From Methanosphaerula palustris E1-9c (GTDB taxonomy: Archaea > Halobacteriota > Methanomicrobia > Methanomicrobiales > Methanospirillaceae), in assembly GCF_000021965.1 (NCBI RefSeq), contig NC_011832.1, positions 1,426,001 through 1,490,000 on the forward strand: 64,000 bases of DNA, read 5' to 3'. A program made the position numbers and the translations under genes. Shown piece after piece: positions 18,434-34,810 of this stretch; positions within the stretch are counted from its first letter, which is position 1, and each line of letters opens with the position of its first letter. Under the pieces are notes generated by a model. It saw only the letters and a list, made by a program, of their open reading frames with translations, made no database searches and had not been told where the DNA came from.

Positions 18434-19789
18434 ATGGACACCACGGAAATGTACCAGGAGAGGTTCAAAAGGATTATCGAATTGCTCGAGCAACACGCAT
18501 CCACGGGCCTGACCATAACCGCTGTCGCCCAGAATCTCGCCATCCCCCGGAATTCTGCCTCCAAATATCTCGCACTCCTCGCTTCGAAAGGAGATGTGAG
18601 TGTAGAGCAATTCGGCCAGAAGAAGTTCTATCGCCCGATGCCGCGTGTACCGCTATTGGATATCTTCGACCGCCTGCCGTATGCTATCGTGATCCTGGAC
18701 GCCGACCTCCAGGTTCGGATGGTGAACATGAGTTTTGTCACCGAACTCGGCATCCTTCCCGGGCGCAACATCATAGGCATCCCGCTCTTCGACCTGGATC
18801 TCCCGATCTTCGCCGAGCCAGTGGTGCAGCGGAACATTGAGCGGATCAAGCAGTCGCAGACGTACATTGCTGATATGCAGCTGATCACTGAGAAAACTGA
18901 TAAGATCTATAACCTCGGTTTCTCCCCTGTCGTCATGCAGATCGACAAACCGGGCATCATGGTCAGCTTTCATGATATCACCGCACGGCGAAAAGCGGAG
19001 ACCGCGTTGAAGGACTCGGAGCGGAAGATCGAAACCCTCTTCGAAACGGTCCCGAGCGGGATTATCATGTTCACCGCCGACGGGGTGATTGTGAACGCCA
19101 ACCCAGCAGCCCTGCAGATCTTTGCTCTGCAGAACTTCGAAGAACTGAGCACTGTGAACGCTTTCGATCTCACCTGTGCCCCGGGGAGGCTGCAGTCACT
19201 GATTCAGAAAGGACGAGTGGACGAGACCGAACTCGCGTGCGACTTCGACCGCATGAAGCGAGAGCAGGGGATCTTGAGCACGAAATCCGGCGTGGCTTGC
19301 TTCAACGTAGTCTTCACACCGATCCGCCCGGACAATGGCGGCCAACCGACCGAGTTCGCGATCCTCTTCAAGGACATCACCCGGGACCGGCAGGAACGAA
19401 AGGAACTGACCTCCAGGGAGACCCGGTATCACTCGTTCTTCGAAAACTCCTTCAACGGCGTAATCATCTATGAGCCGTTCGATGGGGGGTCTGACTACAC
19501 CTTCAAGGACCTCAACCGGGCGGCAGAAAAAATCCTCCGTGTACCGAAGGCAGATCTGGTCGGCCGGAACGCCACTGAGGTGTTCCCCGATCTCGATGTC
19601 CCTGTGATCCGTGAGGCCGTGGCGCGAGTTATGACTACGGAGAACCCGGAGTTCCTCCCTCCCCTCCATTACTGGAGGGGCCAGGGTGCCTGGATCCTGC
19701 ACTACCTCTTCAAACTCCCCTCAGACGAGCTCGTCTCCCTCATGGTCGACGTCTCTGAAGAACTCCGTGAGGATCGCGACGATATCTGA
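18434..19789 (+). CDS. Winged-helix/PAS regulator, alcohol module A
   Basis: 451 residues from MDTTEMYQERF. Residues 1-75 are a helix-turn-helix/winged-helix domain (GLTITAVAQNLAIPRNSASKYLALLASKGDVSV...). PAS domains follow: about 80-195 (LPYAIVILDADLQVRMVN), about 205-325 (LFETVPSGIIMFTADGVIVNAN) and about 335-440 (RYHSFFENSFNGVIIYEP). There is no kinase or receiver domain, so it is a one-component sensor-regulator: the PAS part senses and the N-terminal domain binds DNA. It lies 266 nt upstream of the alcohol dehydrogenase on the same strand. Homologues with the same layout lie at 23601 (head only) and 29722, always next to the alcohol/F420 genes. Confidence 0.75.
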   Translation: MDTTEMYQERFKRIIELLEQHASTGLTITAVAQNLAIPRNSASKYLALLASKGDVSVEQFGQKKFYRPMPRVPLLDIFDRLPYAIVILDADLQVRMVNMSFVTELGILPGRNIIGIPLFDLDLPIFAEPVVQRNIERIKQSQTYIADMQLITEKTDKIYNLGFSPVVMQIDKPGIMVSFHDITARRKAETALKDSERKIETLFETVPSGIIMFTADGVIVNANPAALQIFALQNFEELSTVNAFDLTCAPGRLQSLIQKGRVDETELACDFDRMKREQGILSTKSGVACFNVVFTPIRPDNGGQPTEFAILFKDITRDRQERKELTSRETRYHSFFENSFNGVIIYEPFDGGSDYTFKDLNRAAEKILRVPKADLVGRNATEVFPDLDVPVIREAVARVMTTENPEFLPPLHYWRGQGAWILHYLFKLPSDELVSLMVDVSEELREDRDDI

Positions 19790-19917
19790 TCAACAGGGAA
19801 ACGGTGCGGCGGAGACCGATGAACGCATTTTATGCTATTACTGGTAAACAGTAGCTTTGGTTTTTGTCGACGATACGGAGTGTGGATCCGCGCGAACGGC
19901 CGATCTTTGGGATTAGG

Positions 19918-19926
19918 TATATAAAT
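19918..19926 (+). promoter_or_regulatory. Probable TATA box upstream of alcohol dehydrogenase A
   Basis: The string tatataaat follows 'gattagg'. A second TATA-like tract (catatatat) lies near 19982. One of them should drive the dehydrogenase at 20056; which one cannot be decided by eye. Confidence 0.3.
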
Positions 19927-20055
19927 GAGATTAATATCTGAAGAATTACCCATAACTTCTGGCCGGCGCCGTTGTTCTCAAACATATATATCACCCTTTT
20001 AGTGACTGGCGGTAAAACAAATCCCTATGTACTGGTGCATCCTCTTTTTCCTTGT

Positions 20056-21114
20056 ATGAAGGGATTAGCAAGAACAGGTCGTGGAGCACCCGGCTGGGTT
20101 GAGAAGGTCAAGCCCGTCGCAGGTCCACGTGACGCAATCATCAGAGCCATAGCTATTGCACCATGCAACTCAGATGTGCACTTAATCTGGGGAGAGATGG
20201 GCGACTTTCTGCCAAGCGACCGCATCTTCGGCCACGAAGCAGTCGGTGTCGTCGACTCGGTCGGCAACGATGTCAAGGACTTCAAGGTAGGGGACCGGGT
20301 TGTCGTCCCCGCAATCACGCCGGACTGGGGCACTGTCGCCTCGCAGCAGGGCAATCACCAGCACTGCAGTGGGCCGCTCACAGGCATGCCGTTCGACATG
20401 CTCAAGGACGGCACCTTCGCGGAGTACTTCCACGTCAACGACGCAGACGCCAACCTCACGTTGCTCCCAGACGGTGTCACCCTCGAGCAGGCCGTTATGG
20501 TCGTCGACATGATGACTACGGGCTTCTACGGCGCCGAGATGGCCGACGTCAAACTGGGGTCGACCGTCGCCGTCTTTGGCATTGGGCCGGTCGGACTGAT
20601 GGCCGTGGCCGGTGCTCATCTGATGGGCGCCGCACGGATCCTCGCCGTCGGCAGCCGCTCGAACTGTGTGGATCTCGCCAAGGAATACGGGGCTACCGAT
20701 ATCGTTGATTACCACAAGGGCGATACGGTCAAGCAGATCATGGATCTGACCGATGGCAAGGGCGTGGATGCCGTGGTGGTGGCCGGGGGGAACGCCAGCA
20801 CCATCGGCGAAGGCCTTGAGGTCCTGAAGTTCGGTCACACTCTTGCCAACCTGAACGTCATGGAGGAAGCGATGTTACCCATCCCCCTAGCACCCATGGC
20901 ATTCGGTCTCGGCGGCAAGACCATCAAGGGGAATTTGTGTCCCGGTGGAAGGGCCAGGATGGAGCAGATGCTCGCCCTCGTGAAGGCCGGCCGGGTCGAC
21001 CCGGGTAAGCTGATCAATTACCGGTACACGAAGTTTGAGGATCTCTTACCGGCCCTGATGGTCATGCACGACAAGCCGAAGGATCTGATCAAGTCTGCAG
21101 TGATCCTCGAGTAA
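20056..21114 (+). CDS. NADP-type zinc secondary alcohol dehydrogenase A
   Basis: 352 residues from MKGLARTGRGAPGWVEK. The sequence follows the Clostridium beijerinckii/Thermoanaerobacter isopropanol dehydrogenase family throughout: APCNSDVH with Cys37, FGHEAVG with His60/Glu61, and MVVDMMTTGFYGAE with the third zinc ligand Asp. The nucleotide-binding GIGPVGLMAVAG and VGSRSNC segments also match; an SR pair here favours NADP over NAD. The reaction is secondary alcohol to ketone (also ethanol to acetaldehyde). The paralogue at 32628 is clearly diverged. The F420H2:NADP oxidoreductase follows after 31 nt, so the pair would send electrons from the alcohol to F420. No Shine-Dalgarno is visible before the chosen ATG. 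Confidence 0.85.
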   Translation: MKGLARTGRGAPGWVEKVKPVAGPRDAIIRAIAIAPCNSDVHLIWGEMGDFLPSDRIFGHEAVGVVDSVGNDVKDFKVGDRVVVPAITPDWGTVASQQGNHQHCSGPLTGMPFDMLKDGTFAEYFHVNDADANLTLLPDGVTLEQAVMVVDMMTTGFYGAEMADVKLGSTVAVFGIGPVGLMAVAGAHLMGAARILAVGSRSNCVDLAKEYGATDIVDYHKGDTVKQIMDLTDGKGVDAVVVAGGNASTIGEGLEVLKFGHTLANLNVMEEAMLPIPLAPMAFGLGGKTIKGNLCPGGRARMEQMLALVKAGRVDPGKLINYRYTKFEDLLPALMVMHDKPKDLIKSAVILE

Positions 21115-21145
21115 TGCGAAGAGAACATTATGGGGAGTGCAAATT

Positions 21146-21826
21146 ATGAAAGTTGCAGTAATTGGAGGAACCGGAGGACAGGGTCTCGGTATCGCGACCC
21201 GGTTTGTAGTGGCAGGGGAAGAGGTAATCATCGGCTCGAGAACGCTTGAGAAGGCCCAGGCCGGTGTGGACAAAGTAAAGGAACTTCAGGGTGACGTCAA
21301 GAACGTGAAGGCTGCAACGAACCCTGACGCGGCCAAAGAAGCCGATGTGCTGATCATGACCGTGCCGCTCGCAGCGCAGAAGGATACCCTGCTCTCGATC
21401 AAGGAAGGCGCAGCCGGCAAGCCGTTGATGGATGCGACGGGGCCCCTGGAATCCTGCATCGGTGGTTCCGCAACAAGATGCCTCAACCTCACTGAGGGGT
21501 CCGCGGCGCAGCGGGCACAGGCGATCTTACCTGATGCAAAGGTGATCTGTGCGTTCAACAACATCTCGCAGACCTGGTGGATGCAACTCGAGGAGCCGAT
21601 CGACTGTGACTGTCTCATCTGCGGTGACGACAAGGACGCCAAGGCGATCGTAACGCCGCTGATCGAGAAGGTTCCCGGCATCAAGGTTGTCGACTGCGGG
21701 ATGCTTGAGCGGGCCAGCATCATCGAGAAGATCACACCACTCCTGATCGGGCTGAACATCCGGAACAAGTGCCAGTTCGGCGGGATCCGGATCACCGGCC
21801 TCGACAAGGGTCGGGTCTGTAAGTAA
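21146..21826 (+). CDS. fno: F420H2:NADP oxidoreductase-like protein A
   Basis: 226 residues from MKVAVIGGTGGQGLG, with GGGGAG upstream deciding this ATG over a GTG three codons before. The Rossmann motif GGTGGQG (residues 7-13) and the SRTLEKA segment that holds the NADP phosphate are present. The core ITVP-like strand (LIMTVPLAAQ) and the PDAKVICAFNNIS block agree with the archaeal Fno/NpdG family. The enzyme moves hydride between NADPH and F420. Its last ~45 codons are nearly identical in DNA to the second copy at 31901. A third, short tail copy lies just downstream (21859-21951). Confidence 0.85.
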   Translation: MKVAVIGGTGGQGLGIATRFVVAGEEVIIGSRTLEKAQAGVDKVKELQGDVKNVKAATNPDAAKEADVLIMTVPLAAQKDTLLSIKEGAAGKPLMDATGPLESCIGGSATRCLNLTEGSAAQRAQAILPDAKVICAFNNISQTWWMQLEEPIDCDCLICGDDKDAKAIVTPLIEKVPGIKVVDCGMLERASIIEKITPLLIGLNIRNKCQFGGIRITGLDKGRVCK

Positions 21827-21858
21827 TCTCATCGATGATGCAGACGGAGATCATTGGA

Positions 21859-21951
21859 ATGAACACGGCCCTGCCCATCGGGCTCACCCTCCGGACCCCG
21901 TGCGGGTTCGGCGGGAACCGGATCGCGAGCCCCGGCAACGGCAGGGCCTGA
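21859..21951 (+). pseudogene. Orphan tail of an F420H2:NADP oxidoreductase gene
   Basis: A 30-residue frame reads ALPIGLTLRTPCGFGGNRIAS...GRA. It mirrors the end of the intact gene (PLLIGLNIRNKCQFGGIRITG...GRVC) position by position, with many substitutions. It sits in the 165-nt gap between fno and the SDR gene. It is best read as a degraded tail from an older tandem duplication; a small real peptide gene is less likely because no ribosome site is clear. Confidence 0.55.
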
Positions 21952-21991
21952 TTGTGCTACCATTCGAACCCTAAACTACAGAGGAATCATC

Positions 21992-22741
21992 ATGGGAAGA
22001 TTAAACAACAAAGTCTGTATTGTCACCGGATCCACCAGCGGTATCGGTGAAGCATGTGCGAAAGACATGGCAGCTGAGGGCGGCAAGCTCGTGGTCTCCG
22101 GCCGGAACGAGAAAGAGGGCGCCAGGGTCGTCAACGAGATCAAGGCAATGGGGGGCGAGGCGATCTTCGTCCGGGCGGACGTCGTCAGCGAAGACGATAT
22201 CAAGAATCTCATTGCGAAGGCCGTCGAGGCCTTCGGGAAGCTGGATGTCATGGTCGCCAACTCAGGCATCGCCATCCTGGGCGATCCTCACGAAGTGGAA
22301 GTCGACGACTGGGATAAGGTTCTCAACGTAAACCTGAAGGGGGTCTTCCTCTGTGACAAGTATGCTGTCATTCAGATGCTGAAACAGGGAAACGGCGGAG
22401 CAATCGTGAATACCGGTTCTATTCACAGTTTTGTCGCCAAGCCGGGCACCACTTCGTATGCCGCGGCCAAGGGCGGGGTCGCCATGCTGACCAGAACGGT
22501 CGGCACCAGTTATGCGACGAGGGGAATCCGCGCGAATTTCGTTGCCCCCGGGTATGTGGACACCCCTCTTCTCTCAGCCCTTCCGCCGGAGGTCTACCAA
22601 GACCTAGTAAAACTGCACCCGATCGGGCGACTGGCCAAACCGGTAGAGGTCGCGAAGGCTGTCACATTCCTTGCGAGCGATGACGCCTCCGATATCACCG
22701 GCACCAGCCTGCTGGTCGACGGCGGGTACTCTGCAGTATAG
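21992..22741 (+). CDS. Short-chain dehydrogenase/reductase
   Basis: 249 residues with a GAGG ribosome site. All classical SDR marks are present: TGSTSGIG (residues 12-19), NSG at 90-92, Asn114, Ser143 and the YAAAK pair Tyr156/Lys160, plus a PG motif after the active site and a TGTSLLVDGG end. The SGRN segment after the second strand suggests NADP. It is the third gene of alcohol module A and may reduce or oxidise a keto product of the dehydrogenase or work on another carbonyl; the substrate is unknown. Confidence 0.85.
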   Translation: MGRLNNKVCIVTGSTSGIGEACAKDMAAEGGKLVVSGRNEKEGARVVNEIKAMGGEAIFVRADVVSEDDIKNLIAKAVEAFGKLDVMVANSGIAILGDPHEVEVDDWDKVLNVNLKGVFLCDKYAVIQMLKQGNGGAIVNTGSIHSFVAKPGTTSYAAAKGGVAMLTRTVGTSYATRGIRANFVAPGYVDTPLLSALPPEVYQDLVKLHPIGRLAKPVEVAKAVTFLASDDASDITGTSLLVDGGYSAV

Positions 22742-22860
22742 TCATCCATATACCTCATCGGACAGGGTCTTTGGGCGTAACGGAGTGAGCCTGGGGGGGA
22801 TTACCTCCGCTGGCACCTCCCGGGCGCCTTTAAAAAAAATCATGATTATCGACAGGAGGT

Positions 22861-23472
22861 ATGAAAAACATGGAAGAAAATGGAACAAGGGTTTCCTCAT
22901 AGGCGGATCCGTCCGCAATCGGCACCTTACTACTCGGGATATTCATCATCTTACAGGCATCGTTTTTGCTCGGACTCGTTGACTCCATCACCATTATTGA
23001 TTGTGGGATCTGGGCTCTCGCGATGGTGCTCCTCTTCTAGATTGTGATCGTCATGCAATTCCATGCCGGCGACCTCATCGGGGGCACTGTCAATGGCGTC
23101 CTTGGCGGCGTTCTGCTGCTCTGCGAGTATCCCAGTCGGTGGTTCGTCGCGGCGATCTGGATCGGGGCCATCGGGTTCCTGCTCGCAGCAGCAGCCATGT
23201 TCGGGTTCGGCCCGATGCTGGCCGTCTACGGCGGCGCTTTTATCGAAACCCTGGGAGTCTGGTTCCTGTACATGGGTATCGCCCAGTTAATGAACGGGGC
23301 ACTGCAATCCCAGAAACTTCAGGTAGGTGACCCGTTGTTCCACCCGTCTGCTGCGGCAGAGTCAATCGGACAACCGGGCAGGGTGACCCTTGCCGGTCAT
23401 CTCACCCGGGATGCATGCCAGTCCAACGGCATGAGGGGCGGAGCTGGACGGGCCGTTGGAGATACACCTTGA
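22861..23472 (+). pseudogene. GPR1/FUN34/YaaH-type (acetate) transporter gene broken by two in-frame TAG codons
   Basis: One continuous frame from ATG 22861 (or 22870, better placed after AGGAGG) encodes a small polytopic protein. Hydrophobic segments read GTLLLGIFIILQASFLLGL, IWALAMVLLF, VLGGVLLLCEY, FVAAIWIGAIGFLLAAAAMFGF and so on. An ADPSAIG start and the AMVLLFQ-like second helix recall the SatP/YaaH family. TAG occurs at 22900-22902 and 23038-23040 without loss of frame. After about 23320 the frame loses family character. I read this as a pseudogene. TAG read-through (for example pyrrolysine) is an alternative but not supported by anything else in the window. Confidence 0.45.
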
Positions 23473-23600
23473 ACCACTGCAGCATCGGATGGGAGAGTCC
23501 TCGATTATCTCAGAGATCTGCCGGAAGCCGCATGTTCCGGTCCTCCGACCACATCTCCTCGTTCTCACCTGCAACCGTGGAGATTCTCGGCAGTGAACGC

Positions 23601-23972
23601 ATGAAAAGGTACAGGGAGCAGGTGGATCAGATCGCGAAACTGCTCGAGGAGCACGCAGCCACAGGCATGTCCGTGACGGCGATCGCCCGGGAGCTCGGGA
23701 TTGATCGAAAGACCGCTGCGAAGTACCTCGACCTCCTTGCCGCGAGCGGCGACGTGAGCATGAAGCGGTTCGGTCAGAAGAAGTTCTGCCGTCCTGCCCG
23801 CTCGTTCTCTTTGGGGTTCGCGGCGGCCCTTTTTCACCTCGGGATCGACGGCCGCTCTTCGTATCTGTGCCGGCAATGTGCTGCTGGCTGGAGGCACGAT
23901 GAACGAAAGCCTCTCTGGCCCTACACAAGCTATATAATTACTCTCAGTAGATTTACCAAACAGGTGATCTGA
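23601..23972 (+). pseudogene. Truncated winged-helix/PAS regulator (DNA-binding part only)
   Basis: From MKRYREQVDQI, the first ~62 residues match the winged-helix domains at 18434 and 29722 (ATGMSVTAIARELGIDRKTAAKYLDLLAASGDVSMKRFGQKKF). After FCRPAR the PAS part is missing and the frame continues as unrelated sequence to 23972. It could still make a small DNA-binding protein that competes with the full-length regulators. Its stop overlaps the ATG of the next gene. Confidence 0.6.
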
Positions 23973-24456
23973 TGGAAAATGCTACCGGAAAGGCAGGGCG
24001 GTCGACAATAATCAGGCATCACATCAATGCACCCCGGGCGATAGTCTATCGTGCACTTCTTGATGCACATGCGGTTGCGACGTGGATGGTGCCGACCGGC
24101 ATGACCAGCACCGTGCATTCGTTCGATGCCCGCGAAGGCGGCTCGTTTCGGATCTCGCTCACGTACGACACTCCCACCGGGACCGGCAAAACGACCGCAC
24201 AGACTGACACGTTTCACGGCCGTTTTGTCAAACTCGTACCGAATGCTCAAGTTGTTGAAGTGGTTGAGTTCGAGACCCCAGACCCCACACTAAGCGGCGA
24301 GATGACGATTTCGTACACCCTTTCAGATGCAAATGGCGGCACTGATATCTTGCCGTGCACGATAGGCTCCCGCGTGGCCTGTCTGCCGCTGACAACGAAG
24401 TCGGTTGGCGGATGTCACTGGAGAAACTCGCGACGCTCGTTGAGCAGGGCTCATGA
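23972..24456 (+). pseudogene. SRPBCC/AHSA1-type protein with a frameshift
   Basis: The start follows an AGGTGATC ribosome site. The first ~125 residues are typical of the Activator of Hsp90 ATPase-like START family (ATWMVPTGMTSTVHSFDAREGGSFRISLTYD). Near 24346-24350 the frame shifts: the expected ending (LAVHDRLPRGLSAADNEVGWRMSLEKLA..., stop at 24454) lies in another frame and needs one inserted base. As given, the frame reads on to 24595 through low-complexity sequence. It is either a recent inactivation or a sequencing error. Confidence 0.65.
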
Positions 24457-24822
24457 TCTTCCGGCCCGGGCGTCCGCCAGGGATTCCCCGCGGGTTGCAG
24501 TGAACAGTTCTTCGAGCGCTCTCGGTTCGAAGACACTGAGAAAACCTGGTAACCCCAGAGTATTTGTTCCACCGAATCGGTATACACGTCCATGATTCTA
24601 CCTGCCTTCTGGATGGGATCTCCGTCGGATTCTGGAGAAAGTAATACCTCTGGACGGCATCCGAGATACTCTGGGTCACTCGTGCGACGTTAACAGCAAT
24701 CTCCTCCGGGCATTCTGTGGTAAAAAAACCTTTCCTCTACGCCTTTCTGGATACTTGATTCGCAAATCTTTGAGATCTAACCGATCGACGTTGCAGCCAT
24801 CTTCTCGTGGAACAGGGCATTC
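24457..24822. other. Gap without a recognisable gene
   Basis: The minus strand holds a short frame ending near 24454 with protein-like content (LPGFLSVFEPRALEELFTATRGESLADAR), but it has no start and I cannot name it. Nothing else is supported. Confidence 0.3.
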
Positions 24823-24992
24823 TCATCGGTATTCCGCATCCTCAGGAGACTCCCGATCAGGAACACGGAAATTCAGACAATCTACGTCGCCATCAAAGGT
24901 GACGTAGCCATTAATATTGACTCGCTTGCATACCCTCCGGGGATGGTTATGTTCCCGGAGAATTTCAGATCACTTCTCTCTTCTGTGCTCAT
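24823..24992 (-). pseudogene. Bactofilin-like (polymer-forming) gene remnant
   Basis: It begins at an ATG at 24992 with GGAG upstream and reads MSTEERSDLKFSGNITIPGG. The continuing similarity lies in another frame (KRVNINGYVTFDGDVDCLNFRVPD), stopping at 24823. The pattern 'LKxSGxxxIxGG...vxInGxvxxdGDVxc.xfrv' is that of DUF583/bactofilin beta-helix proteins of archaea. The rest of the gene is missing. A frameshift near 24930 separates the two parts. Confidence 0.45.
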
Positions 24993-25343
24993 GTTTTCAC
25001 TCCTCATCCCCGTTTAATCTTCAGGTCTTCCATACAATCCCTAACAGATGGATACTCCAATTTTTCTGAAAAATACGATTTCACCGTTCTATCCCTCGTA
25101 TTTTTACAATTGCCGGCCAGCGTCTCTGCGGGATCGTGCCTTCATCGATGCTTATGGTGCCGGAAACAGCACTCTTTCAATCCTTTTTTTTAGAACAGAT
25201 CAACCGCACGCATACAATCCGACCCGTCTGCACCATTTTCTCTCAATGCCCCGGGTCCGCTCAATCGTAAAAAGAGGACGGGTTCGCACCTTCATGCTTG
25301 ATCAGATGACAGGGAAGACTGATCCTCTCAGGGGAAGTACTTC
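24993..25343. other. Gap without a recognisable gene
   Basis: A plus-strand frame overlaps here but it is a shadow of the hydrolase gene at its right end. I see no motif, repeat or hairpin worth calling in this stretch. Confidence 0.3.
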
Positions 25344-26135
25344 TCAATCACGAAAGAAATCCACAAGTACCGGTGCAAGAACCTCCGGGCTGACATCATG
25401 TGTCTGGCCCTCCAGCATCCGGAACCGGGCGTGGGGCATGATCGTGCTCAGGGTTTCGGCGGTCGCCTTCATGAACGGGAAACTGGCGCCGCCACTCATG
25501 ACCAGCACGGGGACCGTCACGTGGGCGGCAATGTCACAGGGGACGGCAGCCTCAGGGCCAAGGATAGCAGTATGGTCATAGGCGAGAGTGGGAGCCATCG
25601 CTTCCATTGCCGGCCAGAATGGTGCATGGCGCATACCCGCGATCTGCCCTGCTGGTATACCCATCAACTGGAGGAAGAGGACAACCGCATCACCGGTTTT
25701 CCCGTCAGCCAGCAACCGGGTTATCTTCGAGATGTACTCTTTCCAGGCAGCCTTCGCCTGCGGGTCATCGTTGTAGGGTACTTCGTAGAGGGCAAGTTTT
25801 TTTATGGTGCTGCCGGGTTGTGCCGCTGCCTGGAGTGCCAGAGCCCCGCCAGACGAATGGCCATAGACATACGCCCCGCCCCCCGCTGCGTCGATCAGGG
25901 TCGCAAGATCTTCGAATTCGCGCTCTACCGCATAGGGCAGCGTGTCTCCACTCTCACCCTTTCCGCGGCGATCGTAATGATAGACGGTGAAATGTTCTGC
26001 AAGCAGTTCAACAAGGTGAGGGGTGGATGCGAAGGTGTGAATAGTAAGTGCGCCTGAAACGATGATGAGAGCTGGACCACTGCCATGCTTTTCGTACGCT
26101 ATCCTGGTACCATCACGGGATGTTATCGTAACCAT
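25344..26135 (-). CDS. Alpha/beta-fold hydrolase
   Basis: 263 residues; GGAGG lies upstream of the start. The nucleophile elbow is GHSSG (Ser94), the oxyanion region is PALIIVSGAL, and YHYDRRGKGES precedes the first helix. The general base lies in EGQTHDVSPEVLAP. A catalytic acid is not obvious: the usual position reads VLVMSGGAS. Family members hydrolyse esters, lactones or haloalkanes. It starts 18 nt after the DHFR-like gene and probably shares its transcript. Confidence 0.8.
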   Translation of the reverse strand: MVTITSRDGTRIAYEKHGSGPALIIVSGALTIHTFASTPHLVELLAEHFTVYHYDRRGKGESGDTLPYAVEREFEDLATLIDAAGGGAYVYGHSSGGALALQAAAQPGSTIKKLALYEVPYNDDPQAKAAWKEYISKITRLLADGKTGDAVVLFLQLMGIPAGQIAGMRHAPFWPAMEAMAPTLAYDHTAILGPEAAVPCDIAAHVTVPVLVMSGGASFPFMKATAETLSTIMPHARFRMLEGQTHDVSPEVLAPVLVDFFRD

Positions 26136-26153
26136 GGTGCGCCTCCAAAAGTG

Positions 26154-26735
26154 CTATGACGTATCCCGTCCCGCTGGCTGGTAGGTAAGGAGGACCCTTC
26201 CGCTCTTCTGGAAAACCCTCGTCCCGGTCAGCGTCAGGTTCATCCGGTTCACATCCCTGAACAGGTATTTGCCGGAGCCCAGAATCACCGGGACTACCAT
26301 CAGCTGGTACTCGTCAATGAGGCCGAGAGTCGTCAGTTGTTGCACGATAGTACCGCTGCCAAGGATTGTGATGCTCCCCTGCTTTTTCAGGGATAGGACT
26401 TCCTCTGGCCTGATCTCATGAATGACCCGGACGTTCTTCCAGACCGGGCCGTCCTTTTCGGGATCCATGGTCTTCGAGAAGACAATCTTAGGCGTGCGAT
26501 TCATCATACCGGCTGTAACCGGGTCGGCCTTGATTGCGACCGTGGTCGGCCAGTAACTCTTCATCATCTCATACGTCGTCCGGCCGAAGATCAGCAGGTC
26601 GGCTTTCTTTGACGACTCGGCCGAGAATTCCTTCTCTTCGTCGCTGTGTTCATCCTTAAACCAGTCGATCTCTCCGTTGGGCCCGGCAAAATACCCATCC
26701 ACTGAGACAATGGTGAATGCATTAAGGTTCCCCAT
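26154..26735 (-). CDS. Dihydrofolate reductase-like (RibD C-terminal family) protein
   Basis: 193 residues; GAGGA lies before the ATG. The start matches the family (MGNLNAFTIVSVDGYFAGPNGEIDW), then DLLIFGRTTYEMMKSYWP, KIVFSKTM, ITILGSGTIVQQL and LIDEYQLMVVPVILGSGKYLF. The last two are the cofactor loop and the DEYxLxxxPVxLGxGxxLF signature. These proteins are NADPH reductases of unclear substrate. A broken paralogue lies just upstream (26836-27438). Confidence 0.85.
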   Translation of the reverse strand: MGNLNAFTIVSVDGYFAGPNGEIDWFKDEHSDEEKEFSAESSKKADLLIFGRTTYEMMKSYWPTTVAIKADPVTAGMMNRTPKIVFSKTMDPEKDGPVWKNVRVIHEIRPEEVLSLKKQGSITILGSGTIVQQLTTLGLIDEYQLMVVPVILGSGKYLFRDVNRMNLTLTGTRVFQKSGRVLLTYQPAGRDTS

Positions 26736-26835
26736 AGGTACTTCCTCACAACTCGCTAATTCTCGGGAACGGCTGATAAACCTTGGGATAGTACCACACG
26801 GCCCATGTGGCAGGGATGCAGCAGGTCATCTCTCT

Positions 26836-27438
26836 TCATTCACCGTACCGACACAGGGATTGCCGAGGCTCCGTCCAGGAGAGTACAGGCCGGAACACAT
26901 GAGCAATCGTCCCGGAATCAAAGATCTTCGCGTCAATAAGTTTCAGATGAAGCAGTTCTGGGAGTACAGAAAATAATGGTAACCCGGCCCCGAGCGCTAT
27001 CGGGTGGACGATGAGTTGATATTCACCGATAAGCCCGGTTTTCACCAGTTCGCGTGCAAATCCGGCTCCTCTGTGTCAGGAGATCCCTGCCCGGTTGCTC
27101 TTTCATGCGGACGATCTCTTCGTGGAGCTCGCCGCTCATAATAATGGGATTTGCCCAAGCTCGCTGTACGCGGGCCATGGATTCGTGCAATATTTGCATC
27201 ATTAGCGTTCCTGACCTGTGTTACATCGTTGAACGCAGGGGAAGGTTCTCCTGAATCCCGGCACGAATCTTTTTTCGTGAAGACGGCCTTGGGAATCTCA
27301 TTCATGGGTGCTGCGAAAAGTTCGGCTGAATACAGCCAGTACGCCGCCATGTTCTGGAATGTGCGCCTGCCCAGAATATGCACTCCCGCCTGCCAGAGCA
27401 TGTCAACGGTCCAGGCGGGTACGCCCTCATCCCTGTGA
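26836..27438 (-). pseudogene. Broken DHFR/RibD-like gene
   Basis: Two fragments in different frames make up one family member. The 5' part (27042-27438) has MLWQAGVHILGRRTFQNMAAYW and FAAPMNEIPKAVFTKK. The 3' part (26836-27045) has TGLIGEYQLIVHPIALGAGLPLF and IAHVFRP. Between them the sense continues through changes of frame (a GELHEEI-like block is out of frame). The first ~40 codons are missing. At least one frameshift and a 5' truncation make it non-functional. Confidence 0.7.
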
Positions 27439-27574
27439 GGAGGGGGATTGTATGACTAAAAAAACTCTTGAAAGAGGGGGGACCCTAATCTCCCTTGTAA
27501 ACTTACAGAATACCCAGGGAAAGGGAGAGATGTATGAAGGATCCTTCATCTAAAAATTCTTTTTTATATAGTCC

Positions 27575-28597
27575 TCACCGGGAATAATAATCGGCAAGTA
27601 AGGAGAATGCTTTCTTGGGAACCCATGGCATATTCCGGCATGACGGCTCACTTCCCTTCGCAAGCATCTTAACGATGCCATAACCAGCCATATCCAGGTC
27701 GTACTTCGGGTTTTCGTCGGACACGTACGATGGCTGGACAAACGTGAACACGAAGGCCCCGGCGACCGGCTCGTCAGAGAAAATATCGAGCAGTTCCATA
27801 AGGTACTCCGACTGGACCGATTCATCCCGGACAAAATTCCCTTTCAGTTCAGGGCGGTCCCGGTCCCAGTCGACGATCATCCACCCGGCTGGCCCCTTGT
27901 CCTCGGCTCCCCGGTAGCAGCAACATCCGAATTCCAGGACCACGACCGGCTTACCATGCCGGAAATACCCCTTCAACTGATCCCGGTACAGGGACCGGTT
28001 GTACGATGAGCGGTAATGATCGATACCAACGAGATCGAAAAGACTCCAGTCCACAGATTCCCAGGTCCCGGATGCATAGGTGACCTGCCCCCCGAACAAC
28101 TTCTTGATCTCAGGCAGCATTTTTCTGAAGAACATATTCAGGTTTTTGTTATACCCGCGGGGGATCCCGGCGGCGTTCATGAGGATCGAAAGCGGCCCGA
28201 ACATCTGCCGCAACCGGGCCTCTGTCGTATCTCCGCGGATAAAGCCCTGCGAGAAGAGACTCAGCTCGCATCCCGCTACATAGATGACCTTTTCGTACTT
28301 CACCCGCAGTTCTTCTGCTGCCAGTGCTCCCCGGAGAATATAGTCTTCCGTCTCTTTACGGGAAGCATTGATGGTGGACGGGGAGAAAAAGACCGTCAGA
28401 TCGTGCGCCAGCGCATATTCTGATGCTACGACCAGCCGGGAGATATCGTAGCCGGAGATCCGGATTGCATTGCAGTGCAATTCGGAATCGATGATCCCGA
28501 TCTCCTGTTCGACGACTGCCGGATCGAACTCTTCCCGGGATGATCTTCCCTGTCGGTAATTTGTCCCGACGTCGTAGTTTATTCCCCGGTACTTCAT
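27575..28597 (-). CDS. TIM-barrel glycoside-hydrolase-like protein (group often labelled 'abortive infection')
   Basis: 340 residues from MKYRGINYDVGTNYRQG. This start is preferred because it matches the family start I remember (KYRGINYDVG); the frame upstream has no such similarity. The alternating strand/helix pattern (NAIRISGYDISRLVVASEYALAHDLTVFFSPST; YEKVIYVAGCELSLFSQGF; SLFDLVGIDHYRS; KPVVVLEFGCCCYRGA; GAFVFTFVQPSY) fits a (beta/alpha)8 barrel with Glu residues at the ends of strands 4 and 7 (AGCEL, LEFG), like a retaining glycosidase. The label 'abortive infection protein' attached to such sequences is, as far as I know, not based on experiment. The start has no clear ribosome site. 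Confidence 0.6.
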   Translation of the reverse strand: MKYRGINYDVGTNYRQGRSSREEFDPAVVEQEIGIIDSELHCNAIRISGYDISRLVVASEYALAHDLTVFFSPSTINASRKETEDYILRGALAAEELRVKYEKVIYVAGCELSLFSQGFIRGDTTEARLRQMFGPLSILMNAAGIPRGYNKNLNMFFRKMLPEIKKLFGGQVTYASGTWESVDWSLFDLVGIDHYRSSYNRSLYRDQLKGYFRHGKPVVVLEFGCCCYRGAEDKGPAGWMIVDWDRDRPELKGNFVRDESVQSEYLMELLDIFSDEPVAGAFVFTFVQPSYVSDENPKYDLDMAGYGIVKMLAKGSEPSCRNMPWVPKKAFSLLADYYSR

Positions 28598-29721
28598 GGA
28601 TTTCTGCTTAAAACCGGTCGGGTAAATACCTGTCGCACTCCTATACCCGGATAATCTTTTCCATCGCCCCAGGTTCATAAAATAACCGGCGTTTCAGTGC
28701 TATCATCACCAAACATTGACGATGGGCCTGGTACTAAATCCGGTCCCGGGTCCGCTCAATCACTGAGAGCCCGGCCCCCGGCCCCACTTCACGCGGGCCG
28801 GCAGGGCAAGATTTGTCCAACCCGGTGTTTTTTAAACCTCTTTTCTCTGGTTCAGGCATCCAGACCGGTGTTTGACCGAATAATTTTTATTACAATGGAG
28901 AGGTGCAGTCTTAAAAGAGAGCTAAATATAGTCTTCGTACAGGTTTATCGGGCATTTTGCAGTTGCACTGCTGTTGATCGACCTGTTTCCCGGGATCCCG
29001 CCCAAGGGGAAGGGGCTCCGATTTACCACAGTTAACACCAGTTGGTGATCCCAACATGCCACCTCTTGCCTTCCAATCCCTCCGTTCTCTCGTTCTAGTG
29101 TTGCCCCCCCTCGCCGATCAGGTGGAGGTCCACGTTCCCACGTTCCCACGCTCCGGCCGGCTTCCACTCCGCCGCCTCCATTACGCAGACTGGACGATCG
29201 GGCCGCCCGGATTGGACGTGGACCCATTCCAGGCTCCCTCTATGCCCCGAAGGGCATTACACCTCTGCCTCAAATTATGATCAATCTGGGTGTAACCGTC
29301 ACCCCAAGGAAATATTCTATGGAAATATTCTATTCAAATCAGAGAATCAGAACCTTTTCGTCTTGATAGAGCAACTCTACATCAGGTGACTTTGTGTGAG
29401 CGAGGAAATAGTAGTCCCCAAGGAAGTGCTGGTCCATGGGGCCTGGTGCCCGGTCCCTGTCACTACGACGCATCGCAGGATTTACGACAGGATTCGTCAC
29501 CTTCAAAACAGAAACCTCAGCCCGGGTTTTACATCTTCATGGTTCAAATCCATGTATACTGATCACCGGCGGTCCAGAAGTACCGGCTGCAATAACCACC
29601 CTCGAAAAAGACCCTTGATCTCGCATTTACAGCGCTCCTTGTCATTCGAAGATCTTGGTCACCACTCATCAGAAAAGATGATGCCGGCGAAGGGGGAACG
29701 GTCTCAGGACGGGAGCATACC
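28598..29721. other. 1.1-kb gap with a dispersed repeat
   Basis: There is no gene I can support. About 29060-29260 is the first copy of a dispersed repeat shared with 37085-37300. A tRNA T-arm-like hairpin (catgg/ccatg around ttcaaat, 29538-29554) stands alone. The remaining sequence is Pro/Arg-rich in every frame, as expected for noncoding GC-rich DNA. Confidence 0.35.
29060..29260 (+). repeat. Dispersed GC-rich repeat, copy A
   Basis: It shares ordered blocks with 37085-37300: tccgttctctcgt, a ccctcgc block, acgttcccacgctccgg, a gccgcctcca block, then a tggac/ggattggacg stretch and ggaccc. Identity is partial with indels. The two copies are 8 kb apart and both lie in gene-free gaps just upstream of large genes. 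Confidence 0.45.
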
Positions 29722-31512
29722 GTGACAGACGACGCGACCACGTACCAGGAGATGCGCGACAGGATTCTCGGCCTGCTTCAGCAGCACGTGCCCAGGGCGG
29801 TCCCGATCCAGACGATTGCCCGGGAACTCGAGATCGATCGGAGAACTGCTGCCAAGTATCTCGATTTCCTCGCACTGAGCGGGGATGTCAGTATGGAGCG
29901 CTTCGGACCGAAGAAGCTGTACCGGCCGTCGAAGCGCCTGCCCCTGCTCGAGATCGTCAACCACCTGCCGGTTGCGCTCGTGATCCTGGACGCAGACCTC
30001 CAGGTGAACATGGTGAATGCGAGCTTCGTCGCTACCCTCGGCCTCCACCCCGGCCACACGCTGGTCGGCGCCCCGCTCTTCGACCTCAACCTCCCTTTTT
30101 TCTCGGACCCTGCGGTCCAGCGGAACATCGAGCGGATCCGCCGATCGGAGATATACCTGGATAAGATGCAAATGATGGACGAGCGGACGGACAGGGTCTT
30201 CCTCGCAGCGTTCGCGCCGATCGTCTCCCCGACCGCCGGCGAGGGGATCATGGTCAGCCTCCAGGACATCACGGCGGTGAAAAATGCCGAGACCGATCTC
30301 AAGGACTCGGAGAAGAAGATGGCGACCCTCTTCGAGTCTGTTCCGAGCGGGATCATCCTTTTTGCGGCAGACGGGGCGATCCTCAACGCGAACCACGCGT
30401 CGCTGCAGGTTCTCGGTCTGCGCACCCCCGCCGATATGCGGATCACGAGCATCTTCGACATCGCCTGTTACCGGACGAAACTGGAGTTGCTGATCCGGGA
30501 GGGGCGGGCTACCGAAACCGAACTCGCCTGCGACTTCGAGCGGTTGCGTCGGGAGCAGGGGATCCAGAGCACGAAGAGCGGCATCGCCTATTTTGATGTA
30601 GCCTTTACCCCGGTCCTTCACGACAGCAGGGGGGCAGCGAAGGAGTTCGCCATCCTCTTCAAGGATATTACGGCTAAGAGGCGTGCGGAGAAGGAACTGA
30701 AGGAGCGGCTCGCGGGCGTCTCCAGTAACCTCCCCGGAATCATCTACCAGTTCTACGCCAGAGATACCGGAGAATGGGGCATTTACTACGTTGACGCACG
30801 CTCCGCAGATATCTTCGGTCTCAACCCCTGGCCGGTCCGGGACTGGTTCCAGCGGTTTTCCGCGTGCATCGCCCCTGAGGACCGCGACTGGTGGGACGAA
30901 TCGACCCATGAGACTGTTCACAGGCGCGTCCCCTGGGACTTCGAGGGCAAGTTCCTCAAGCCGTCGGGAGGCGAGATATACTTCCGTGGCATTTCGCAGC
31001 CCGTCCGACTGGAGCACGAGACGGTCTGGAACGGAATCTTCCTTGACATCACCGACCGCAAGATGGCAGAGGAGGCGCTGCAGCAGAGCCATTTTCTGGA
31101 AACCCGGTACCGTTCGTTCTTTGAGGACACCTGCAACGGCATCCTGATCTACGAGCCTGTCGACGAAGGCAGGGACTACCTCATCACCGACGCCAACAGG
31201 GTAACGGCGAATCTCCTCCGCACGAACCGGGCCGACCTGGTTGGCAAGCGGCTCTTCGAGGAGTTTCCTGACCTCTCGACCCCCGAGATCCACGCGCTCT
31301 TGCTGCGAATACTGACTACAGAGCGGCCCGAGGCCGTCGCGCCGCTCCGGTACCGGGAGCGGGACGACTTCCCCCTGATCTCCCACTATGTCTTCAAGCT
31401 CCCGTCGGGGGAACTTGCATCGTTCATGATAGATGTCTCCGAGGTGCTGGAGGGAGCGGAAGGGCTACCACCCGCTGTTAAGGACGCTACCAACAGATCA
31501 AACTGCGACTGA
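29722..31512 (+). CDS. Winged-helix/PAS regulator, alcohol module B
   Basis: 596 residues; a GTG start with GGGAG upstream. The N-terminal winged helix (IQTIARELEIDRRTAAKYLDFLALSGDVSMERF) is followed by four PAS-type domains: about 80-195 (LPVALVILDADLQVNMVN), about 205-325 (LFESVPSGIILFAADGAILNAN), about 330-460 (a PAC-like one, PGIIYQFYARDTGEWGIYYVD) and about 465-580 (RYRSFFEDTCNGILIYEP). Compared with the module A regulator it has one extra PAS domain in the middle. Like that protein it has no kinase part. It lies 388 nt upstream of the second fno gene and most likely controls module B. Confidence 0.75.
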   Translation: MTDDATTYQEMRDRILGLLQQHVPRAVPIQTIARELEIDRRTAAKYLDFLALSGDVSMERFGPKKLYRPSKRLPLLEIVNHLPVALVILDADLQVNMVNASFVATLGLHPGHTLVGAPLFDLNLPFFSDPAVQRNIERIRRSEIYLDKMQMMDERTDRVFLAAFAPIVSPTAGEGIMVSLQDITAVKNAETDLKDSEKKMATLFESVPSGIILFAADGAILNANHASLQVLGLRTPADMRITSIFDIACYRTKLELLIREGRATETELACDFERLRREQGIQSTKSGIAYFDVAFTPVLHDSRGAAKEFAILFKDITAKRRAEKELKERLAGVSSNLPGIIYQFYARDTGEWGIYYVDARSADIFGLNPWPVRDWFQRFSACIAPEDRDWWDESTHETVHRRVPWDFEGKFLKPSGGEIYFRGISQPVRLEHETVWNGIFLDITDRKMAEEALQQSHFLETRYRSFFEDTCNGILIYEPVDEGRDYLITDANRVTANLLRTNRADLVGKRLFEEFPDLSTPEIHALLLRILTTERPEAVAPLRYRERDDFPLISHYVFKLPSGELASFMIDVSEVLEGAEGLPPAVKDATNRSNCD

Positions 31513-31900
31513 GGGGATCCGGGTCTCATCAGCCCAATATGAACGGCGGGGTCGTGAACATAGTGGACCGTCAGCTCCATTTCACATTCTCTTCGGACGA
31601 CGTCGAGAGCTGGCGGGCCACATCGAAAGCCGGTCTCATTCTGAGAGCAGTTATCTGAAGAATGGCGGAGTGTTCCTGGACCGGAATCCATTTGCAGGCG
31701 TCACCGAAAGGTCTCCACCAGATCATCATCCGCAGTGTGATGGGGCCTCTCCGTGCTTTCGGGGTTCTGTCTCCCCGACAGGTTGGTGGAATAGAGCTTC
31801 TCGGTATTTTAATCAAGGGGGGTCTTTGATCCACAGAGAATCGCGCCTTTAAGGGATCCATCGTCAATTTTGGTAGTGTTATAAATATTAGAGGTGAAGT
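31513..31900. other. Regulator-to-fno gap with promoter-like sequence
   Basis: No gene is supported. A TATA-like tract (ttataaatat, 31879-31888) lies only 13 nt before the GTG start, too near for a normal leader; either translation starts on a leaderless transcript or the true promoter is further upstream. Confidence 0.3.
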
Positions 31901-32578
31901 GTGAAAATTGGAGTAATTGGTGGAACAGGCGGCCAGGGGCTCGGCATCGCGACCCGGTTCGCACAGGCGGGAGAGGAGATCATCATCGGCTCGCGGACGC
32001 TCGAGAAGGCCCAGGTCGGTGTGGACAAAGTCAAGGAGCTGCTCGGCGACATCAAGAACGTCAGGGCCGCGACGAACCAGGACGCGGCGAAGGAGAGCGA
32101 CGTGCTGATCCTGACCGTGCCGCTCGCGGCGCAGAAGGACACGCTCCTTTCGATCAAGGAAGGAGCAACCGGCAAGCCCCTGCTCGATGCAACAGGCCCA
32201 CTGATGTCCGCCATCGGCGGCTCGGCCACACAGTGCATGTTACTGCCCGAAGGCTCTGCCGCGCAGCGTGCGCAGACGATCCTGCCGGCGGCGAAGGTGA
32301 TCTGCGCGTTCAACAACATCTCGCAGACCTGGTGGATGCAGCTCGACGAGCCGATCGACTGCGACTGCCTGATCTGCGGCGACGACAAGGATGCCAAGGC
32401 GATGGTGACGCCGCTGATCGAGATGGTCCCCGGCATCAAGGTCGTCGACTGCGGTGCGCTTGAGCGGGCCAGCATCATCGAGAAGATCACGCCCCTGCTC
32501 ATTGGGCTCAACATCCGGAACAAGTGCCAGTTCGGCGGGATCCGGATCACCGGCCTCGACAAGGGTCGCGTCTGCTAG
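31901..32578 (+). CDS. fno: F420H2:NADP oxidoreductase-like protein B
   Basis: 225 residues starting at GTG with GAGGTGA upstream. GGTGGQG, SRTLEKA, LILTVPLAAQ and ICAFNNISQTWWMQL are all conserved as in copy A, and the whole protein is close to it. In DNA the last ~115 nt (from gagcgggccagcatcatc) differ from copy A at only a few bases, far fewer than the neighbouring dehydrogenase genes, which suggests gene conversion or recent copying. The gene order is reversed compared with module A: here fno comes before the dehydrogenase. Confidence 0.85.
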   Translation: MKIGVIGGTGGQGLGIATRFAQAGEEIIIGSRTLEKAQVGVDKVKELLGDIKNVRAATNQDAAKESDVLILTVPLAAQKDTLLSIKEGATGKPLLDATGPLMSAIGGSATQCMLLPEGSAAQRAQTILPAAKVICAFNNISQTWWMQLDEPIDCDCLICGDDKDAKAMVTPLIEMVPGIKVVDCGALERASIIEKITPLLIGLNIRNKCQFGGIRITGLDKGRVC

Positions 32579-32627
32579 TACCGACATTCGAACATCAACA
32601 ATCGGTCAAACAACAAGAGGTCATATC

Positions 32628-33686
32628 ATGAAAGGCTATGCAATGATTAAACTCGGAGAAGCAGGGTGGGTAAACAAGATAATGCCGAAGTGCGGTCCCC
32701 GCGACTGTATCTGCCGGCCGCTGGCCCTTGCACCGTGCACATCAGATGTCCACGTCGTGTGGGAGAACGCGATCGGCGAGTTACCCGGCCGTATCCTGGG
32801 GCACGAGGCCCTGGGGATTGTCGACGAGGTCGGGAGCGAGGTCAAGCTCTTCAAGCCCGGTGACAGGGTCATCGTGGGCGCCATCACGCCGAACTGGGAT
32901 AACGAAGCCGCTCAGCGCGGTTTCTCCTCCCAGACAGGCGGCATCATGGGGGCCTATGAATTCACGGCCAAGAAGGACGGCACCTTCGCTGAGTACTTCC
33001 ACGTGAACCAGGCGGACAACAACATGGCGATGCTGCCGGATGGCATGGACCCCGTCGCGGGCGTCATGATCACCGACATGATGACCACGGGCTTTATGGG
33101 TGCAGAGAACGCGGGCATCCAGCTCGGCGCTGACGTCGCGGTCATCGGTATCGGGCCGGTCGGCCTGTGCGCTATCGGTGGCGCGAAGATGCGGGGCGCC
33201 AGCAGGATCTTCGCCGTCGGGTCCCGCCCGACTCCCGTCAAGGTCGCGAAGATGTACGGCGCGACGGACATCATCGACTACCACAACGGCGACACGGCCC
33301 AGCAGATCATCGACGCAACGGATGGAGCGGGCGTTGACGCCGTTGTCGTCGCCGGCGGCGGCCCCGACATCCTGATGGACGCCATCAAGATGGCGAAGGC
33401 CGGGTCGAAGATCTCGAACTGCAACTTCTTCTCGGGGGCAGACACCCTGCCGCTCCCCCGCCTCGACTGGGGGAGCGGCATGGCGAACAAGGACATCATC
33501 ACCGGCCTGTGCCCCGGCGGACGGGTCCGCCTGGAGCGGCTGGCCAAGCTGATCACCTATGGTCGCTTCGACCCGATGCCCATGGCGACGCACGTCTTCC
33601 ACGGGCTCGACCACATCGAAGAGGCCCTTCTCATGATGAAGAAGAAGGCCGGCGACGTTATCAAGCCCGTCGTCATCTGCGAGTAA
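32628..33686 (+). CDS. NADP-type zinc secondary alcohol dehydrogenase B
   Basis: 352 residues from MKGYAMIKLGEAGWVNK; GAGGT lies before the ATG. Zinc ligands follow the isopropanol dehydrogenase pattern exactly: Cys37, His59/Glu60 (LGHEALG) and the Asp of MITDMMTTGF. GIGPVGLCAIGGAKMRGA and VGSRPTP fit an NADP site. The C-terminus (HVFHGLDHIEEALLMMKKKAGDVIKPVVI) is closer to the clostridial enzymes than copy A is. The two dehydrogenases may prefer different alcohols. It follows fno by 49 nt in the same operon. Confidence 0.88.
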   Translation: MKGYAMIKLGEAGWVNKIMPKCGPRDCICRPLALAPCTSDVHVVWENAIGELPGRILGHEALGIVDEVGSEVKLFKPGDRVIVGAITPNWDNEAAQRGFSSQTGGIMGAYEFTAKKDGTFAEYFHVNQADNNMAMLPDGMDPVAGVMITDMMTTGFMGAENAGIQLGADVAVIGIGPVGLCAIGGAKMRGASRIFAVGSRPTPVKVAKMYGATDIIDYHNGDTAQQIIDATDGAGVDAVVVAGGGPDILMDAIKMAKAGSKISNCNFFSGADTLPLPRLDWGSGMANKDIITGLCPGGRVRLERLAKLITYGRFDPMPMATHVFHGLDHIEEALLMMKKKAGDVIKPVVICE

Positions 33687-33901: not shown

Positions 33902-34810
33902 ATGGTAATGGTTGGCATGCAGGGGCGGGGGGTGGCCGTCACGGGCGCTCAGTATGGAATCGACGTGCTGATAGGCAAAGGATCTGCACAAGAAGATGAT
34001 AATGGGCGCCTTCACGCGGCGTTCATTGGCGGAGAGGACCACAGTTCATCTGTACTGCGGGTCGGGCTCCTCGGCTGCGGCAACATCGGATTCCTGATCG
34101 CGGCACACGCCGACGGTTTCGAGGTCGCGGCTCTCTACGACCAGGCGCCCGGGCTGGCGCCAGAACTCGCAGGCCGCTGTGGAGGGACGGCATACGACTC
34201 GTTCGAGACGTTCGTCAGTGCCGACGTCGACCTCGTGGTCGAGGCCGCGTCGCCGGCAGCGGTGCGGGTATACGGCGAGGCCGTGCTCCGAGCCGGCAAA
34301 GACCTCGTTGTGATGTCTGTGGGGGCACTCGCCGACCCCGCCGTCCTTGGGCGGCTCCGCGAGGCGGCGATCGCATCGGGTCGGCGTGTCCGCATCCCGA
34401 GCGGCGCCGTGATGGGCCTGGACAATCTCAAGATTGGGCGCATCGGTGGGATCGACCGCCTCGTCCTGCGGACGACCAAGAACCCGGCGTCGCTCGGCCT
34501 TACGGTCGCCGAACGGGTGCTCGTCTTCAAGGGGCGGGCCGAGGAGTGTGTCAGGGCCTTTCCGAAGAACATCAACGTCTCGGCCGCGATCGCGATCGCG
34601 GCCGGGCAGGAGATCGAGGTCGAACTCTGGGCGGACCCAACCGTTGACCGGAATATCCACGAGATCTTCGCCGAGGGCCCCTTCGGCGATGCCTGTCTCC
34701 AGGTCCGGAACGTGCCGAGCCCGGATAACCCGGCGACGTCGTACCTCGCAGCCCTCTCGGTTCTGACCCTCCTCCGCGACCTTTCCGAGCCGATCGTGGT
34801 GGGGACGTGA
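33902..34810 (+). CDS. nadX: L-aspartate dehydrogenase
   Basis: 302 residues if the ATG after ACGGAG is used. The family core starts about 55 residues later (LRVGLLGCGNIGFLIAAHADGF), and no start codon is present nearer than a GTG at about residue 22, so an N-terminal extension of 30-50 residues seems real. The core has the GxGxxG NAD site, VEAASPAAV, MSVGALAD, PSGAVMGLDNLKIG, the TTKNPASL block and ADPTVDRNIHEI with the catalytic His. The enzyme makes iminoaspartate from aspartate for NAD synthesis (replacing NadB). The stop overlaps the start of the next gene by 4 nt. Confidence 0.8.
   Translation: MVMVGMQGRGVAVTGAQYGIDVLIGKGSAQEDDNGRLHAAFIGGEDHSSSVLRVGLLGCGNIGFLIAAHADGFEVAALYDQAPGLAPELAGRCGGTAYDSFETFVSADVDLVVEAASPAAVRVYGEAVLRAGKDLVVMSVGALADPAVLGRLREAAIASGRRVRIPSGAVMGLDNLKIGRIGGIDRLVLRTTKNPASLGLTVAERVLVFKGRAEECVRAFPKNINVSAAIAIAAGQEIEVELWADPTVDRNIHEIFAEGPFGDACLQVRNVPSPDNPATSYLAALSVLTLLRDLSEPIVVGT

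Follow-up and report, generated by a model that had tools for sequence, protein, structure and literature searches.

Regulator-linked alcohol dehydrogenase and F420H2:NADP oxidoreductase modules in Methanosphaerula palustris: probable members of a redox cassette family in Methanomicrobiales

What purpose is served by two sets of secondary alcohol dehydrogenase (adh) and F420H2:NADP oxidoreductase (fno) genes, arranged in opposite orders, in the chromosome of the methanogen Methanosphaerula palustris E1-9c, and how did they come to be there? Both sets lie in a stretch of 64,000 nucleotides (contig NC_011832.1, positions 1,426,001 to 1,490,000, forward strand), here called the window and numbered from its first letter. 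Comparison of these modules with a third elsewhere in the genome and with loci from 232 genomes of the order makes it, in our judgement, reasonably probable that they belong to a family of regulated alcohol-to-F420 redox cassettes in Methanomicrobiales, in which Fno stays uniform while the dehydrogenases diverge.

Both adh/fno pairs are present on the plus strand where the original prediction had placed them, each downstream of a regulator with clear PAS domains and an N-terminal helix-turn-helix (HTH) that matches Pfam only below threshold. Module 1 comprises REG1, an HTH and PAS one-component regulator of 451 amino acids (18434–19789; Pfam PAS_4, PAS_8 and PAS_9, with a weak TrmB/IclR HTH), adh1 (20056–21114, ATG at 20056) and, after a spacing of 31 bp, fno1 (21146–21826, with an alternative GTG start possible at 21137). 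Module 2 comprises REG2, with 596 amino acids and, according to Pfam, one additional PAS region (29722–31512), fno2 (31901–32578, GTG start) and, about 50 bp on, adh2 (32628–33686). The short gaps and shared strand within each pair are consistent with operons. Although below the Pfam cut-off, the HTH is conserved more strongly than any other part of the regulators; a search of the PDB with the regulator gave no match at E 0.001.

Both enzyme families are placed firmly by their matches, so the earlier description of an NADP-linked secondary alcohol dehydrogenase paired with Fno holds. The best PDB match of adh1 was 1bxz, the Thermoanaerobacter secondary alcohol dehydrogenase TbADH (E 2e-126), and that of adh2 was 7f3p/1bxz (E 1e-132), assigning adh1 to the Zn- and NADP-dependent secondary alcohol dehydrogenase (ADH) family and adh2 to the same NADP-dependent family. 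Against the curated TIGR01915 (npdG) cut-off of 149.8 bits, fno1 scored 225.5 and fno2 221.9, both more than 70 bits above it; fno1 also matched PDB 5n2i, and the NADP-binding motifs GGTG and GSR are invariant in the Fno copies.

A whole-genome search extended the count. The original prediction was right about two modules in the window, but the genome (a single contig of 2,922,917 bp) holds three, the third lying outside the window at 2,893,284–2,899,420, about 1.44 Mb from the others. It has the order regulator-fno-adh, with a REG2-like regulator (REG3) upstream of fno3 and adh3 (at 2,897–2,899 kb), so that adh-fno occurs once in the genome and fno-adh twice. The three modules retain all nine of their core genes intact. 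The genome also has a fourth Fno, standing alone at 1,052,473 and just 37% identical.

When residues were mapped onto TbADH, the Zn ligands Cys37, His59 and Asp150 (Glu60), together with Ser39 and His42, proved to be kept in all three ADH copies. The site for the NADP 2'-phosphate (Gly198, Ser199, Arg200, Tyr218) is identical in adh1 and adh2, and adh3 has Thr199. In proton relay, Zn ligands and the residues that bind NADP, the M. palustris ADHs match the enzymes of Thermoanaerobacter brockii and Clostridium beijerinckii (1YKF/1BXZ, 1KEV), which differ from adh1 at residues 110, 267 and 285 and from adh2 at 110 and 267. In the substrate pocket, adh3 alone is unchanged from TbADH, keeping Trp110, Tyr267, Met285, Leu294 and Cys295; adh2 has W110Y, Y267F and L107M in an otherwise TbADH-like pocket; and adh1 has W110M, Y267V and M285L, substitutions that run through its clade (W110M, Y267V/A, M285L). 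When Trp110 of the Thermoanaerobacter enzyme is engineered to Ala or Gly, the large pocket becomes roomier and bulky ketones can enter (PMC11680648). These residues predict a widened pocket and bulkier secondary alcohols as substrates for adh1, a retained 2-propanol/2-butanol pocket for adh3 and a slightly altered one for adh2. The earlier proposal that the modules serve different alcohols is backed, as a prediction, by these pocket differences.

Across the 232 genomes, a TbADH-like gene occurred in 47, and the Fno subfamily of the modules (at least 74% identity) in about 20. Type 1 cassettes (REG1-adh1-...-fno) were found in six other genomes, two of Methanoregulaceae (G212, G214) and four of Methanoculleus (G053, G054, G063, G074), although fno is cut by a contig end in G212 and G214 and one Methanoculleus adh1 is broken. 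In all six, the REG1 orthologue lies immediately 5' of adh1, at a gap of 219–271 bp. The type 2/3 cassette (REG2-fno-adh), with a REG2 orthologue 5' of fno-adh, occurred in G212, G214, G216 and G217, some loci being split over contig ends. A scan of a genome collection with the Fno alignment returned four loci only, and named Methanoculleus UBA430 and Methanoregulaceae UBA288 and UBA11384.

In the type 1 relatives, adh1 and fno are separated by a short-chain dehydrogenase (SDR), and a second SDR follows fno at about 45 bp in contigs long enough to show it; G214 additionally holds REG1-fno-SDR and fno-SDR units. These arrangements suggest that Fno serves dehydrogenases besides ADH, and fno followed by a dehydrogenase is, from the gene orders, a recurring unit. 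We infer that loss of the intervening SDR is the simplest explanation for the adh1-fno1 order in M. palustris.

The regulator and ADH trees separated the cassettes by type. REG1 split from REG2/REG3 with support of 100/100, and the ADHs split likewise (99 and 100). The adh copies are 51–66% identical (51% for adh1 against adh2), with synonymous divergence (dS) near saturation. From these trees, the ADH and regulator clades are either older than the split between Methanoregulaceae and Methanoculleus or have been exchanged between them. As side observations, fno-SDR pairs spaced by about 45 bp occur at L117, L118 and L116 (G214) and at L106–L109 (Methanoculleus), once right behind a REG1-type regulator, and G217 (L121 1851–2810) has a shortened REG-type gene 3' of fno-adh2 and just 5' of NadX, an order unique among the loci here.

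Fno behaves differently. The other copies are 83–88% identical to fno1 in DNA and 88–92% in protein (88% for fno1 against fno2), and in the DNA tree fno1 and fno3, both from M. palustris, form a sister pair (100/99); the Methanoculleus copies also cluster mostly by genome. Monophyly of type 1 Fno was rejected by approximately unbiased (AU) tests (p 0.0099 for protein, 0.032 for DNA), though these draw on a short protein and two trees and the DNA p value is moderate, which tempers the case for recombination made below. Directly behind fno1 is a broken copy of an fno 3' end (21850–21969, plus strand), with disrupted frames and 73–77% DNA identity to the 3' ends of fno; similar remnants lie between fno3 and adh3, in the same place in G217, and in Methanoculleus. 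Those outside the window are at L011 10108–10282, L122 3974–4213, L107 8865–9002 and L109 10096–10235. Several contigs of G214 and G217 terminate inside fno, as expected where copies share near-identical DNA. Among the three M. palustris fno DNA sequences no clean gene-conversion tract was found, the longest identical run being 59 bp; recombination events were therefore probably old or repeated. Given the grouping by lineage and the broken 3' ends, Fno has most likely been homogenised by recombination between copies while regulator and dehydrogenase diverged. Strong purifying selection alone was rejected as the source of Fno similarity, as it leaves the lineage grouping and the tail remnants unexplained. 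What the original prediction called a conserved reductase is, on the Fno trees and AU tests, more plausibly a case of homogenisation across modules.

A further association concerns NAD synthesis. NadX (aspartate dehydrogenase) is single in most genomes of the order, and M. palustris has a second copy 3' of adh2 (34055–34810, plus strand, start codon uncertain; TIGR03855, 292 bits against a cut-off of 206.55). An extra NadX was present in 10 of 47 genomes with the ADH and 3 of 185 without (p 9e-6); as genomes within one genus are not independent, genera were counted as well, and 5 of the 10 with the ADH had the extra copy, compared with 2 of the 30 without (p 0.006). In other families, the operon order ADH-Fno-NadX-NMNAT occurs in genomes of g25, probably Methanocorpusculum, and in G106, with ADH-Fno-NadX in G087. 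These loci have another Fno subfamily, another ADH clade and a separate NadX clade, and the NadX link therefore had several origins or was spread over a long distance. NadX beside the modules may enlarge the NADP pool. Our literature search found no paper on adh-fno-nadX clusters. Near module 3, NadX was considered as an accessory copy and rejected: it belongs to the housekeeping nadX-nadC pair at 2,904,863, 5 kb from the module and past transposase-like fragments.

Other features surround the modules. Just 5' of adh1, an alignment of seven type 1 promoters picked out the block TTAGTGA..CGGTAAAAC.AA..CTAT (20000–20029, plus strand), a candidate operator plus TATA box and transcription factor B recognition element (BRE), in which GTAAAAC is invariant just upstream of the TATA-like element; six aligned type 2/3 promoters gave GATCCACAG..AATC....TTTAA 5' of fno2 (31828–31852, plus strand). 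Part of these blocks 5' of adh1 and of fno2/fno3 may be ordinary TATA/BRE signal, and the regulator sites are candidates only. Adjoining module 1 is an SDR (21992–22741, plus strand; Pfam adh_short_C2), 82–83% identical to one that, in three Methanoculleus genomes, is found upstream of REG1 in divergent orientation. Between modules 1 and 2 lies the HTH part alone of a decayed regulator copy (23601–23813, plus strand), in frame within the open reading frame (ORF) 23415–23972; it aligns with the HTH of the regulators and has 79.8% DNA identity to REG3 over 109 bp. Near module 3, ORFs at L011 3964–4512, 8598–9005 and 15908–16351 are, by our own reading, transposase-like; such ORFs separate the regulator from fno3 by 2.2 kb and also lie between adh3 and the nadX-nadC pair, and a 1 kb element nearby occurs repeated at 93% identity. 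Elsewhere in the window, inspection by eye suggested two large predicted extracellular proteins, one of 1272 amino acids with multicopper-oxidase-like motifs and fibronectin-like repeats (11682–15500) and one of 930 amino acids with NHL/PKD repeats (37510–40302).

In the scheme we propose, each cassette would consist of a one-component HTH/PAS regulator, an NADP+-dependent alcohol-oxidising dehydrogenase (a TbADH-type Zn enzyme, or an SDR in some relatives) and a dedicated Fno, which would move hydride from NADPH to F420; the resulting F420H2 would feed the reduction of CO2 to methane, with ketone reduction as a possible reverse direction when H2 is plentiful. Fno would be common to all cassettes and kept uniform by recombination among copies, regulator and dehydrogenase would move as a unit and diverge by cassette type, and module 2's own NadX would probably expand the NAD(P) pool on which the route depends. 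The sequences themselves show the gene identities, the catalytic and cofactor residues, the pocket changes, the conserved neighbourhoods, the conflict between trees, the fno remnants and the association with NadX; the direction of flux, the substrates, the ligand of each regulator and the role in the NADP pool are what we infer from the genes and their surroundings. A bolder version, which we hold tentatively and would sooner doubt than accept, is a modular system of the Methanomicrobiales joining a recombining, homogenised Fno core to interchangeable NADP dehydrogenases, matching PAS regulators and their own NAD-synthesis genes (NadX, and NMNAT in relatives), such that switching on alcohol oxidation would raise the NADP pool.

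Several published observations weigh against alcohol oxidation. The genome paper gives H2/CO2 and formate as the only substrates used by E1-9c (PMC4645200); M. bryantii possesses an ADH and Fno, but isopropanol did not support its growth under the conditions tried (PMC5563889); and the standard potentials of acetone/2-propanol (about -290 mV) and F420 (about -340 mV) (PMC8498797) allow both directions and tilt the balance towards ketone reduction except at high alcohol or low F420H2. The modules might instead run in reverse, F420H2 derived from H2 or formate yielding NADPH via Fno for reduction of ketones or aldehydes in detoxification, as an electron sink or in biosynthesis. The growth substrates and potentials fit this, as do a review naming NADP+ reduction as the dominant direction of Fno in archaea (PMC8498797) and the reductase-like appearance of the SDR partners in relatives. 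Set against it are the distant solo Fno, already there for NADPH supply, the assignment of related ADHs in a 2-propanol user to alcohol oxidation (PMC5563889), and the extravagance, for housekeeping, of three dedicated and separately regulated pairs; we regard it as rather unlikely.

That the modules are remnants from an ancestor that used alcohols, now decaying and silent in this strain, strikes us as improbable: the fno remnants, the decayed regulator, the transposase-like fragments around module 3 and the reported lack of alcohol growth (PMC4645200) would suit it, but the core genes are intact with their catalytic residues kept, and dN/dS for fno (the ratio of nonsynonymous to synonymous change) is about 0.1, so purifying selection acts. 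The original prediction saw a duplication with reordering that built a substrate switch; taken as a recent event inside this genome and a two-way switch, this could draw on the 10 kb distance between the two modules and on their contrasting adh/fno orders. Comparison with other Methanomicrobiales, which it had recommended, supported the two modules and told against local duplication: the genome's three modules fall into two old types with nothing inverted, both types recur elsewhere in the same gene orders, the ADH and regulator clades predate the split between Methanoregulaceae and Methanoculleus or were exchanged, and adh dS is near saturation. Recent tandem duplication was thus rejected by the ADH tree, the regulator tree and synteny, and we give such an origin hardly any credence.

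Among known systems, a close counterpart is the pathway of NADP-dependent ADH and F420-dependent NADP reductase in alcohol-using methanogens (Bleicher and Winter 1991; Berk and Thauer 1997). M. palustris shares both of its enzyme families and, by prediction, its route from alcohol through NADPH to F420H2, but differs in its three copies of two cassette types, a PAS regulator for each, its own Fno subfamily and the fact that the strain is not reported as an alcohol user. The alcohol-NADP-F420 route itself is already on record (Berk and Thauer 1997, as cited in PMC8498797); what this analysis adds is the third module, the organisation into cassettes, the homogenisation of Fno and the link to NadX. 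Methanocorpusculum parvum, which can grow on 2-propanol, has an NADP-dependent ADH (PMC5563889, PMC10035134), and likely relatives from its genus in our set carry TbADH-type ADH-Fno-NadX-NMNAT loci, whereas the M. palustris copies, which have PAS regulators, belong to other ADH clades and another Fno subfamily. The F420-dependent secondary alcohol dehydrogenase Adf (Methanoculleus thermophilus 1RHC; Methanospirillum GP1, PMC8359780) achieves the same net reaction, secondary alcohol to F420, but has a luciferase-like fold and reduces F420 directly. It was not found in the M. palustris genome, where the single match to PF00296 (the luciferase family) is Mer, and the modules are therefore, if alcohols are used, the sole secondary-alcohol route recognised here.

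In some wetland pore waters alcohols are present at millimolar concentrations (PMC6081815), and they may be a fuel for methanogenesis. The alcohol surveys that we considered target luciferase-type Adf or iron ADHs and would miss a regulated NADP/Fno route such as that found here in a peat fen methanogen thought limited to H2 and formate. Substrates are predicted residue by residue and the question becomes testable, and a homogenised Fno beside a diverging dehydrogenase is an attractive example of what is likely concerted evolution in archaea.

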